A stretch of DNA of 38,180 nt from Actinomycetota bacterium (GTDB lineage: Bacteria; Actinomycetota; Thermoleophilia; Gaiellales; Gaiellaceae): NCBI GenBank assembly GCA_013812235.1, contig JACCTU010000133.1, forward strand, positions 1 through 38,180. The letters run 5' to 3'. Of this stretch, positions 25,996-31,194 are shown piece by piece. Both the position numbers and the translations under genes were made by a program. The notes under the pieces were generated by a model. The model ran no database searches. It saw only the letters and a list, made by a program, of their open reading frames with translations, and had not been told where the DNA came from. Each line of letters opens with the position of its first letter. Positions within the stretch are counted from its first letter, which is position 1.

Positions 25996-27051
25996 TCAGC
26001 GGGTGAAGCTGACGTTCGGCTCGAGCCGGCGGGCGAAGGCGGCGAGCAGGCGGGCGCACTGCTCGACGTCGGCGAGGTCGACGATCTCGGTCGGAGTGTG
26101 CATGTAGCGAAGGGGGATCGAGACGAGCCCCGTCGCGACGCCCGCGCGCGAAACATACATCGCGTCCATGTCGGTGGACGTCGTCCCTGCGGAGACCTCG
26201 AGCGTGTACTCGATCCCCTCCGCCTCGGCGGTCTCCGCGAGCAGGTCGAAGACCGTCGGGTTGATCGTCGACCCGCGGGAAATGGCCGGCCCGCTGCCGA
26301 GCCCGTGCTCGCCTTCGACCTTCGGGTCGCCGCCCGGCACGTCGGTCGAGTGCGTCACATCGACAGCGATCGCGATCGCCGGCTCGAGCGTGAACGCCGC
26401 GACGCGGGCACCGCCGAAGTCGCCGACCTCTTCCTGCACCGCGGCGACCGCCGCGACGTCACCGGGCACGCCGCCGGCCTCGGCGACGAGCCGCGCCGCC
26501 TCGAGCGCGACGAACGCGCCCAGCCGGTTGTCCAGCGAGCGCGAGGCGACGCGTCCGTTCGGCAGCTCGACGGGCTCGCCCGCGATCACGACGGCGTCGC
26601 CGGGCCGCACGAGCCGGCGCGCCTCGTCGCCGTCCTTCGCTCCGATGTCGATGTGGAGGTCGTCGAGCATTGTCAGTTGCGGGTCTGCGCCCTTGCGGAC
26701 CTTCTGCTTCGCGCGTTCGACGACACCCGGAAGCTGGCCGTCCTTCGTCAGCACGATCACACGCTGCGCGCGCAGCACCTCGGCGCTCCAACCCCCGACC
26801 GGCCGGAAGTAGGCGTACCCCTCACCGTCGATGTGCGTGACGATCAGGCCGATCTCGTCGATGTGTCCGACGATCGCGAGGAGCGGGCCGTCGCCCGTCC
26901 CACGCACGCGCGCGATCGACGAGCCGAGCGAGTCGCCCGTCACCTCCGCGAACGCGGACGCGGCTTCACGCCACACCGCCGTCGGCGCGCTCTCGTAGCC
27001 GGACGGCCCCGGCGCTGTCAGCAGCGAGCGAAGAACGGACGGCAGCGCCAC
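25996..27051 (-). CDS. M42 family metallopeptidase
   Basis: ALPSVLRSLLTAPGPSGYE, VGHIDEIGLIVTHIDGEGY, LDNRLGAFVALE, AVQEEVGDFGGARVAAF. Confidence 0.92.
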   Translation of the reverse strand: MALPSVLRSLLTAPGPSGYESAPTAVWREAASAFAEVTGDSLGSSIARVRGTGDGPLLAIVGHIDEIGLIVTHIDGEGYAYFRPVGGWSAEVLRAQRVIVLTKDGQLPGVVERAKQKVRKGADPQLTMLDDLHIDIGAKDGDEARRLVRPGDAVVIAGEPVELPNGRVASRSLDNRLGAFVALEAARLVAEAGGVPGDVAAVAAVQEEVGDFGGARVAAFTLEPAIAIAVDVTHSTDVPGGDPKVEGEHGLGSGPAISRGSTINPTVFDLLAETAEAEGIEYTLEVSAGTTSTDMDAMYVSRAGVATGLVSIPLRYMHTPTEIVDLADVEQCARLLAAFARRLEPNVSFTR

Positions 27052-27066
27052 GCAGCGAGCCTACCC

Positions 27067-27095
27067 TTGACGGATCCGGACACGGTCCCTACCCT
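27067..27095 (+). promoter_or_regulatory. Candidate trp operon promoter (-35 TTGACG, 17-nt spacer, -10 TACCCT)
   Basis: TTGACG 27067-27072; TACCCT 27090-27095. Confidence 0.65.
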
Positions 27096-27102
27096 GCGAT
27101 CG

Positions 27103-27165
27103 ATGACTTCTTCCCCGCAGAGCTGGTGGGCATGGCGCACCGAGCGGGGCAGGAGCCTGCGCTAG
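27103..27165 (+). CDS. trpL: trp operon leader peptide MTSSPQSWWAWRTERGRSLR
   Basis: 20-codon ORF with three Trp codons (WWAW) upstream of an intrinsic terminator and trpE. Confidence 0.9.
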   Translation: MTSSPQSWWAWRTERGRSLR

Positions 27166-27200
27166 CGACGCGCTAGCCGGAACACCTGTCTCGCTCTGTC

Positions 27201-27221
27201 AGCCCCGGGAGGGGCTTTTTT
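27201..27221 (+). terminator. trp attenuator terminator hairpin
   Basis: AGCCCC-GGGA-GGGGCT followed by TTTTT. Confidence 0.9.
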
Positions 27222-27228
27222 CGTACCC

Positions 27229-28464
27229 GTGATCGCGCAAACCGTCATCGCAACCGACCTCCTCACCCCGCTCGGGGCATACCTCCGCCTGCGCGGGACC
27301 GGTCAGGCGTCGTTCCTGCTCGAGTCGGTCGAGCACGGACGCCTCGGCCGCTACTCGCTCGTCGGCGCGGGCTCGCGGATCGTCGACCTCGACGAGGCGG
27401 AGGCGACGGGGGAGCCGGTCGTGGGGTACGTCGCCTACGACCACATCGCGAAGCTCGAGCCCACCGTCCCGCTCCCGGCCGCAGGCCCTGACCTCCCCGA
27501 GACCCGCTTCGTCGTCGCCGACGTCCTCGTTCGCTTCGACCACGTCTCAGGAATGGCCGAGGTGCTCTGCGGCGACCCCGCCGAGGTCGAGTCGCTCCTG
27601 GACGGGCCGCTCGGAGAGATCCCGGGTAGAAATGGTGCCGTGTCCGGCGCGCTCCGCCGCACCCCCTCCCGCCACGAGTACGAGCGCATCGTCGGCGTCG
27701 CGAAGGACCACATCCGCGCGGGCGACGCGTTCCAGATCGTGCTTTCCCAGCGCGCGGAGCGGCCCACGTCCGCCGGCGCGATCCAGCTCTACCGCTCGCT
27801 ACGCCGTGTCAACCCGTCGCCGTACCTCTTCCTCCTGGAACTCGGCGACGATCTCGCGCTGGTCGGCTCCTCGCCCGAGACACTCGTCAAGGCCGAGGGC
27901 CGACGCGCGAGCGTCAACCCGATCGCGGGGACGACGCTGCGCAGCGACGGCGACGCCGAGCGGCTGCTCGGCTCGGAGAAGGACCGCGCGGAGCACGTGA
28001 TGCTCGTCGATCTCGGCCGCAACGATCTGTCACGCGTTTGCGTGCCGGGCACCGTGCGTGTCGAGCGGATGATGGAGGCGGAGCAGTTCTCGCACGTGAC
28101 ACACCTCGTCTCCGAGGTGGCCGGCGAGCTACGCAAGGGCGTCTCGCACTTCGACCTCCTGCGCGCGTGCTTTCCCGCCGGCACGGTCTCCGGCGCGCCG
28201 AAGGTGCGCGCGATGCAGATCATCTCCGAGCTCGAGGGCTACCGCCGCGGTCCGTACGCGGGCGCGGTCGGCTACGCGATTCCCGGCGAGGCGTTCGACA
28301 CGTGCATCGCGATCCGCACGCTCGTGCTGCACAAGGGCGTCGCGTACCTGCAGGCCGGCGCGGGCATCGTGGCCGACTCGGACCCGCAGGCCGAGCAGCA
28401 GGAGTGCCTGAACAAGCTGGCCGCGCTCGAGACGGCGATCCGCCTCGCGGAGGCGCGCTCGTGA
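27229..28464 (+). CDS. trpE: Anthranilate synthase component I
   Basis: FQIVLSQRAERP, PSPYLFLLELGDDLALVGSSPETLVK, PIAGTTLR, FPAGTVSGAPKVRAMQIISELE; GTG start. Confidence 0.97.
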   Translation: MIAQTVIATDLLTPLGAYLRLRGTGQASFLLESVEHGRLGRYSLVGAGSRIVDLDEAEATGEPVVGYVAYDHIAKLEPTVPLPAAGPDLPETRFVVADVLVRFDHVSGMAEVLCGDPAEVESLLDGPLGEIPGRNGAVSGALRRTPSRHEYERIVGVAKDHIRAGDAFQIVLSQRAERPTSAGAIQLYRSLRRVNPSPYLFLLELGDDLALVGSSPETLVKAEGRRASVNPIAGTTLRSDGDAERLLGSEKDRAEHVMLVDLGRNDLSRVCVPGTVRVERMMEAEQFSHVTHLVSEVAGELRKGVSHFDLLRACFPAGTVSGAPKVRAMQIISELEGYRRGPYAGAVGYAIPGEAFDTCIAIRTLVLHKGVAYLQAGAGIVADSDPQAEQQECLNKLAALETAIRLAEARS

Positions 28465-29021: not shown

Positions 29022-30043
29022 TCCAGCGCGCGTTGCAGGAGCTGCTGGACGGTCGTTCGTTGCACCGCGCGCGCTCGCGCGCGGTCATGGACCACATCAT
29101 GCGCGGCGAGGCGACGCCTGCGCAGATCGGTGGCTTCCTGATCGCCCTCCGGCTGAAGGGCGAGACCGCGGACGAGATCGCGGGGTTCGCTGAGGCGATG
29201 CGGGCCCACGTCGTGCCGGTCCGTCCCGAGCGCGCCGACCTCGTCGACACTGCCGGCACCGGCGGCGACGGTGCACACACGCTCAACATCTCGACCGCGG
29301 CCGCGCTCGTCGCCGCGGCGGCGGGAGCCGCGGTTGCGAAGCACGGGAACCGTGCGGTCTCTTCCTCGTCGGGGTCCGCGGACGTGCTCGAGGCGCTCGG
29401 CTTCGAGCTCGAGCTCTCACCGGAGCGGATCGCGTGCTCGATCGACGAGCTGGGCTTCGGCTTCATGTTCGCGCCGACGCACCATCCGGCGATGCGCCAC
29501 GCTGCACCGGTGCGCCGCGAACTCGCGACGCGCACCGTCTTCAACGTCCTCGGCCCGCTGACGAACCCCGCGGGCGCGCGTGCGCAGGTCGTGGGCGTCT
29601 ACGCGCCCGAGCTCGTGCGCACGATCGCCGAGGTGCTCGCGCGTCTCGGTGCGCGACGTGCGTTCGTCGTGCACGGCGCGGCCGGAATCGACGAGCTCTC
29701 CCCCGCCGGGCCTAACCTCGTCGGCGAGGTGGTGGACGGCGACGTGCGCGACCGGATGATCGACCCGCTGGAGCTCGGCGTGCCCCGCTGCGACCCGGCA
29801 GAGCTCGTCGGCGCGGGACCCGCGGAGAACGCGACCCGGATCCGTGCGATCTTCGAGGGCGCCGAGAACGCCGGCGCGAAAAGTGCGATCCTGCTGAACG
29901 CCGCGGGCGCGATCGCCGCGGGCGGCCACGCGGCCGACCTGCGCGACGGGCTGGGCTACGCGCGCGAGGCGCTCGAGTCGGGCGCGGCAGCGACGAGACT
30001 CGAGCAGCTCGTCGCGTTCTCGCGCGAGGTCGTGGTGGCGTGA
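29018..30043 (+). CDS. trpD: Anthranilate phosphoribosyltransferase
   Basis: DTAGTGGDGAHTLNIST, KHGNRAVSSSSGSADVLEALG, NVLGPLTNPAGA. Confidence 0.96.
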   Translation: MIQRALQELLDGRSLHRARSRAVMDHIMRGEATPAQIGGFLIALRLKGETADEIAGFAEAMRAHVVPVRPERADLVDTAGTGGDGAHTLNISTAAALVAAAAGAAVAKHGNRAVSSSSGSADVLEALGFELELSPERIACSIDELGFGFMFAPTHHPAMRHAAPVRRELATRTVFNVLGPLTNPAGARAQVVGVYAPELVRTIAEVLARLGARRAFVVHGAAGIDELSPAGPNLVGEVVDGDVRDRMIDPLELGVPRCDPAELVGAGPAENATRIRAIFEGAENAGAKSAILLNAAGAIAAGGHAADLRDGLGYAREALESGAAATRLEQLVAFSREVVVA

Positions 30044-31194
30044 GGTTCCGCGACGCCCTCGCGGCACCCGGGCTCGGTGCGATCGCCGAGATCAAACGAC
30101 GCTCGCCGTCCGCCGGCGAGCTCCGCGGCGACGCCGACCCAGCACTGCTCGCGGCGCAGTTTGCGAACGCGGGAGCCGCCGCGCTCTCGGTGCTCGTTGA
30201 CAGCCGCTTTGGCGGTTCGCTCGACGACCTCCGGGCCGCACGTGCGGCGACGGAGCTACCGATCCTGGGCAAGGGCTTCTTCACGGAGGAGCGCGACCTC
30301 GCCGAGCTGAAGGCGGCGGGCGCGAACGCCGCGCTGATCCTGCTGCGCGACGTCGACGACGCGCCCGCTCGGGCGCTGCTCGCCGCGGCACGAAGGCTCG
30401 GGCTCGATGCCCTCGTCGAGGCACACGACGCGGAGGAGCTCGACCGCGCTGTGCGGCTCGAAGCCGAGATCGTCGGGGTGAACGCCCGCGACCTCGGCAG
30501 CTTCGAGATCGACCGCCGAGCGCAGCTCGAGCTCGTCGCACGCGTCCCCCACGACCGGGTCGTCGTCGCCGAGAGCGGTGTCCACACGCGCGCGCAGGGA
30601 GCGGCCGCCGAGCTCGCGGGCGCGGACGCGATCCTCGTCGGCACCGCGCTGATGCGGGCTACCGACCCCGGAGCGAAGCTCGCCGAGCTGATCTCCCGCC
30701 CGCTCGTGAAGGTCTGCGGGTTGACCCGCGACGAGGACGTCGCGATCGCCGTCGACGCGGGCGCAGACCTCGTCGGCTTCATCCTCGCCCGAGAGACGCC
30801 GCGGCAGGCGCCGCGCGTGCTCGACGTGCCCGACAGCGTTCTCTCCGTCGCGGTCTTCGTCGAGGACGTCGACGAGACGCCCGCCGACCTCGTCCAGCTT
30901 TACGCGAGGGAGAACGGACATCGCGCGCGTCACGCAACGCTCTATCGCGGCACCGAGCGCGTGGCGTCGGTGGTCGACCTTCCGTGGCTGCGCGAGGATC
31001 CGCTCCACTGGAGTCGTGCGTCGTCGCTCGAGGGTCGCGTGATGCTCGCCGGCGGCCTCTCGCCGGAGAACGTGTGCGACGCGATCGAGGCAGTGCGCCC
31101 GTGGGCCGTCGACGCGAGCTCCTCGCTCGAGACGAGCCCAGGCATCAAGAACGAGGCGAAAGTTCGCGCGTTCGTCGAGGCGGCGCGATGCTGA
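30040..31194 (+). CDS. trpCF: Compact TrpC-TrpF fusion (indole-3-glycerol-phosphate synthase / phosphoribosylanthranilate isomerase-like)
   Basis: Trp[56 protein letters not shown]; Trp[29 protein letters not shown]...[14 protein letters not shown]...[25 protein letters not shown]. Confidence 0.88.

Follow-up and report, generated by a model that had tools for sequence, protein, structure and literature searches.

A putative trp attenuator with a predicted leaderless leader peptide in Gaiellaceae, in which the alternative helix abuts the terminator and shares no strand with it

The stretch of DNA analysed here (38,180 nt from a metagenome-assembled genome of a soil actinobacterium of the Gaiellaceae, order Gaiellales, hereafter called the window) carries a trp operon with the confirmed gene order trpE, trpG, trpD, trpC-trpF fusion, trpB and trpA. 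The first gene, trpE (27229-28464, + strand; anthranilate synthase component I), starts with GTG, and records of close relatives of its product are titled, for example, Thermoleophilia, Gaiellaceae or Gaiella sp. With 411 aa the TrpE of the window is short; in other families of the Thermoleophilia most open frames with a TrpE match measure 470-730 aa, and these matches align mainly from query residue 60 on. The trpC and trpF genes are apparently fused in a 384-aa ORF (30040-31194, + strand), the IGPS part of which matches the PRK09427/TrpC models while its C-terminal part matches PRAI/TrpF models. On the other side of the trp leader, a divergent aminopeptidase-like gene (25996-27051, - strand; matches below the NCBIfam cut-offs) starts 52 nt from the leader, so that the promoters of the two share a very short gap.

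Upstream of trpE, the sequence reads as a short leader ORF on the + strand (27103-27165; ATG at 27103, stop codon TAG at 27163-27165) encoding the peptide MTSSPQSWWAWRTERGRSLR, with TGG codons at 27124, 27127 and 27133. It is followed on the same strand by an intrinsic terminator (27201-27221) composed of AGCCCC (27201-27206), GGGA (27207-27210), GGGGCT (27211-27216) and a run of six T's (27216-27221), and the 7 nt CGTACCC separate the T-run from the trpE GTG at 27229. An earlier note on this DNA, which had proposed a ribosome-mediated trp attenuator, had placed the leader ORF, its Trp codons, the terminator and the trpE start correctly, as re-reading of the sequence confirmed. A search of the whole window against Rfam gave no family match, Trp_leader (RF00513) included. 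As the energy of the whole-leader fold is also unremarkable (z -1.07), the case for an attenuator rests on comparison with relatives.

For this comparison, 103 genomes from the GTDB family of the window were sampled, a TrpE match being found in 93 of them; upstream DNA was read only for trpE loci with an intact N-terminus, and 79 loci had upstream sequence. A short ORF in which Trp codons cluster precedes trpE at 70 of these 79 loci, with the peptide consensus MT..R.WWAWR.ERGGS, which bears out the leader ORF and its Trp codons as real features, and a parsable terminator is present in 69 of the 70 leaders, which does the same for the terminator before trpE. These 69 leaders constitute the set used for RNA analysis. 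Each has a stem-loop with a T-run, the T-run directly after the stem is conserved, and the native terminator arms pair better than arms swapped between leaders in 69/69. Beyond the family, Trp-rich leaders stand at all 16 loci fetched from two sister families of Gaiellales (peptides such as MRTTPNGAWWWLMPGRDPVR and MPIQRSTWWWTTERGSAR). Three further Thermoleophilia families have the leader at 0/25, 0/25 and 1/14 loci, and on these counts the Trp leader appears to be mainly an order-level feature of the Gaiellales. The single positive locus among the last 14, L244, has an isolated Trp-rich ORF (..LWSWWRWPDTRG) 5' of trpE, flanked upstream by a TTGACC..TACGGT promoter and downstream by an inverted repeat, while the 13 other loci of its family have none. 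A few members of the window's own family have lost the leader. At one such locus (L062) the attenuator is apparently deleted and a TTGCGC-type promoter lies directly 5' of the trpE ATG, so that trpE looks as if it had itself turned leaderless.

The promoter predicted from sequence and family comparison (27067-27095, + strand), which the earlier note had overlooked and which would make the leader leaderless, consists of the -35 element TTGACG (27067-27072), a spacer of 17 nt and the -10 element TACCCT (27090-27095), which ends 7 nt 5' of the leader ATG. Because of this TTGACG-17-TACCCT-7-ATG spacing there is no room for a Shine-Dalgarno sequence before the ATG, and the transcript of the window is predicted to start at the leader ATG or a few nt away. 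The arrangement is general in the family: in 69/70 leaders the distance from the end of a TAnnnT hexamer to the start codon downstream is 6-10 nt (mode 7-8), such a hexamer preceding only 0.8% of random ATGs in the same loci, and TTGAC or TTGC is found 17-18 nt upstream of the hexamer in most of them. To judge from this spacing, the leader is very probably leaderless.

Two alternative helices, both passed over in the earlier note, can be drawn in the RNA from the leader ORF to the terminator. Strand 2 (GAGCGGGGCAGGAG; 27142-27155, + strand), identified by folding, alignment and covariation at the end of the ORF, has two alternative partners, strand 1 (27107-27118, + strand) near the start of the ORF and strand 3 (CCTGTCTCGCTC; 27185-27196, + strand) located shortly before the terminator. 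The 2:3 helix comprises 12 bp (27142-27153:27185-27196) and encloses a small hairpin seen in the fold, GCTAGCG-ACG-CGCTAGC (27161-27177, + strand), which holds the leader stop codon; the corresponding inner hairpins of relatives differ in sequence. Across the family, strand 2 has the consensus GAGCGGGGCGGGAG and strand 3 commonly takes the form CCCGUUCCGCUC. On a plain MAFFT alignment of the 69 leaders, 92.7% of the cells of the 2:3 helix are paired, and the helix is destroyed when the partner is slid by 1-3 columns. Both-side changes that maintain it occur in 6 of its 12 pairs, with 21 such cells as compared to 5.3 +/- 2.0 after column shuffling (0 of 500 shuffles reaching the count), whereby the shuffles ignore the kinship of the sequences and leave their relatedness in.

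When free of the ribosome, strand 1 would pair with positions 27144-27155 of strand 2 (27107-27118:27144-27155), a duplex of -20.0 kcal/mol in the window with the Trp codons in its loop. A fixed-register column count on the family alignment saw no covariation for this pairing; as strand 1 changes its register with leader length, this count is uninformative and was replaced by duplex tests based on energy, recoding, partner swaps and shuffles. The mean 1:2 duplex energy is -21.0 kcal/mol versus -17.9 kcal/mol for synonymous recodings, the native sequence being lower in 58/69 leaders, and native partners pair better than partners from other species (t -5.9, or -7.0 where the strand 2 cores differ). 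Relative to shuffled controls, family z values are -2.3 for 2:3 and -1.9 for 1:2. These comparisons support the 1:2 pairing, although less strongly than 2:3. In 60/69 leaders the last Trp codon starts exactly 9 nt before strand 2. Two leaders, L027 and L050, have shifted by one base such that the second half of the peptide reads TSGAGAC instead of ERGGS while the strand 2 RNA is unchanged; since the frame-shifted peptides retain the same RNA, selection acts on the RNA and not on the peptide, and a conserved arrest peptide was rejected on the same ground.

With respect to the terminator, the 2:3 helix is constrained in position but not coupled through shared bases. The gap between helix and terminator is 0-6 nt in 69/69 joint folds, the two directly abutting in 28, whereas the spacing between strands 2 and 3 and the other spacers are much more variable. 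Interference, calculated as the folding energy forfeited if the terminator has to form alongside the best upstream fold, amounts to -0.6 kcal/mol in the window and to a median of 0.0 kcal/mol over the 69 leaders of the family, with only 3/69 below -3. The positive controls gave -8.8 kcal/mol for E. coli trp and -5.0 to -7.1 kcal/mol for three Streptomyces trp leaders, in which strand 2 (GGCGGCC) overlaps the 5' arm of the terminator. The family differs in this way from E. coli and Streptomyces whether the ribosome is stalled at the first or at the last Trp codon, and with each of three positions assumed for the ribosome edge. In the sister family, the median is -7.9 kcal/mol with the ribosome stalled at the first Trp codon, but only about -1 to -2 kcal/mol with a stall at the last. 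By this interference test, mutual exclusion of the 2:3 helix and the terminator through shared bases is found neither in the window nor in the family, and because it is absent a purely thermodynamic model would predict no regulation in the family.

Trp codons, promoter, alternative helices and terminator are conserved together before trpE-G-D-CF-B-A, which strongly supports the class originally proposed, and the locus very probably attenuates transcription of the trp operon in a ribosome-mediated manner, by way of a leader peptide ORF that is predicted to be leaderless. Since the 2:3 helix shares no bases with the terminator in the family, it would have to act by position. The reading that explains the locus best as a whole, to which we assign a probability of about 0.8, is ribosome-mediated Trp attenuation; in its more tentative last step, the 2:3 helix formed upon stalling would park the ribosome near the terminator and thereby block the latter. 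The ribosome would load on the 5' AUG while the AUG emerges. With sufficient Trp it would reach the stop codon and cover strand 2, leaving strand 3 free, and the terminator would halt RNA polymerase; with the ribosome absent, 1:2 would form and the terminator would work as well. When charged tRNA-Trp is scarce, the ribosome would stall on the Trp codons and cover strand 1, upon which 2:3 could form, loop out the RNA between ribosome and terminator and park the stalled ribosome against terminator and polymerase.

The last step of this scheme, the positional block of the terminator by a ribosome parked via 2:3, is put forward tentatively and at somewhat less than even odds. The same guarded estimate applies to its corollary that the 'antiterminator' never competes for terminator bases, but loops out approximately 50 nt and brings the stalled ribosome (or only the helix) to the terminator, which is blocked by position. 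From the edge of the stalled ribosome to the terminator the linear distance has a median of 62 nt, which becomes about 8 nt with 2:3 looped out. When the ribosome has reached the stop codon, its edge and the terminator are 15-29 nt apart (median 21), the stop codon itself being roughly 24-38 nt away. For one E. coli terminator, measurements gave nearly complete repression at several bp past a stop codon and full strength beyond about 27-30 nt (PMC4824070). The looped-out distance of about 8 nt would fall inside the range where ribosomes repress terminators. The parked-ribosome step draws on distances in the leaders and on a single study in E. coli, which concerned another terminator. The proximity repression known from the pyrBI and tR2 studies resembles the present proposal in that a ribosome near the terminator prevents folding of the hairpin; there, however, the ribosome comes near through translation, while here it would be brought near by the looped-out helix (PMC4824070).

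The closest alternative keeps the same attenuator but lets the 2:3 helix alone be the antiterminator: it would deny the terminator stem access to the RNA exit channel, and the ribosome would do no more than free strand 2. The narrow gap between helix and terminator, invariably 0-6 nt and absent in 28 leaders next to far more variable spacers, would fit this, and in the ilvBNC leader of Corynebacterium glutamicum a trinucleotide at the boundary already switches neighbouring hairpins (PMC11857589). A helix acting alone nevertheless leaves unexplained why the last Trp codon and strand 2 lie a constant 9 nt apart, and the literature searched yielded no paper on an upstream or abutting helix that by itself blocks an intrinsic terminator; this alternative is considered rather unlikely. 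Classical competition as put forward in the earlier note, with CGGGGC of strand 2 (27145-27150) pairing as antiterminator with GCCCCG of the terminator 5' arm (27202-27207), is improbable. The two segments are complementary, a 7-bp version is found in a same-genus relative, and overlapping antiterminators do occur in the sister family and in Streptomyces. Yet, when imposed on the RNA that lies 3' of a stalled ribosome, the pairing costs 13.4 kcal/mol in the window as compared to 2:3 plus terminator, the related pairing of the relative still costs 7.8 kcal/mol, and strand 3, which is transcribed earlier, takes strand 2. In the family, pairing of strand 2 with the terminator 5' arm is at the level of shuffled sequences (z -0.01), and native pairs have at best a marginal advantage over swapped pairs (t about -2 and -0.9). 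Other partners for the terminator arms, namely strand 1, the Trp codons, the middle region and strand 3, were tried as well and none came out clearly above shuffles; the nearest, strand 1 with the 3' arm, reaches z -0.45, and the two do not co-evolve (t 0.0).

That the leader is an unregulated relic before a constitutive terminator would accommodate the absence of thermodynamic coupling between 2:3 and the terminator as well as the loss of the leader in several relatives. It fits poorly, though, with a 2:3 helix maintained through both-side changes and with Trp codons, spacings and 1:2 complementarity kept across many genera, and is regarded as very improbable. Least probable by a small step is a hairpin that chiefly gates trpE translation by hiding the Shine-Dalgarno sequence, for which the earlier note had pointed to GGAGGGG in the terminator stem. 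The GGAGG ends 16 nt short of the GTG, a distance beyond that of normal Shine-Dalgarno sequences. Counted relative to the first trpE start in 67 leaders, a Shine-Dalgarno sequence at working distance (4-11 nt) lies inside the terminator 3' arm in nine relatives, which is what such a gate would look like, but 51 leaders, the window included, have none at working distance and seven have it downstream of the hairpin. Moreover, a translational gate does not need the conserved T-run right after the stem. By these counts, Shine-Dalgarno gating is not a general feature of the family.

Compared with known systems, the attenuator preferred here shares with its classical counterparts a leader ORF with clustered Trp codons, an intrinsic terminator before the first gene, a 1:2 pairing around the Trp codons and an alternative 2:3 pairing. 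It would be a trp attenuator in its working, but one without the shared strand, which is one tested defining feature of the class as represented by E. coli and Streptomyces. E. coli trpL (Rfam Trp_leader, RF00513) has the 1:2 and 2:3 strands in common with the window, with Trp codons before strand 2 and the terminator before trpE, but is translated from a Shine-Dalgarno sequence where the leader of the window is predicted to be leaderless, and its 2:3 helix and terminator are mutually exclusive. In Streptomyces trpL1-trpE a leaderless Trp-rich leader, as predicted for the window, stands before trpE with a terminator downstream (PMC1262725; PMC8079986); in Streptomyces lividans it is a known leaderless attenuator leader (PMC8079986). 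The trpL1 peptide differs (MFAHSTRNWWWTAHPAAH). The C. glutamicum ilvBNC operon responds to branched-chain amino acids instead, but has in common with the predicted switch of the window leaderless initiation of the leader, according to the model of its authors, an anti-antiterminator that blocks this initiation, and hairpins adjacent at their bases. These overlap by only a trinucleotide, GCC, which has been tested by mutation, whereas the helices of the window share none (PMC11857589); by analogy, ilvBNC looks like a step toward the non-overlapping state. The sister-family loci of Gaiellales (L166-L178) have a presumably leaderless Trp leader at the homologous position and a 2:3 helix adjoining the terminator, but there the helix runs into the GGGC of the terminator base, in contrast to the family of the window.

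No earlier report of trp attenuation in Gaiellales was found in the literature searched, and sequence comparison now documents a probable case for this order of the Thermoleophilia. In its textbook form, attenuation consists of two hairpins competing for one strand. In the 69 leaders considered here the sensing half is kept by covariation while the shared strand is missing, and a sister family still has the shared strand. Side by side, the two families amount to a natural experiment that asks if attenuation requires competition between base pairs at all, or if the position of a ribosome or helix beside the terminator is enough.
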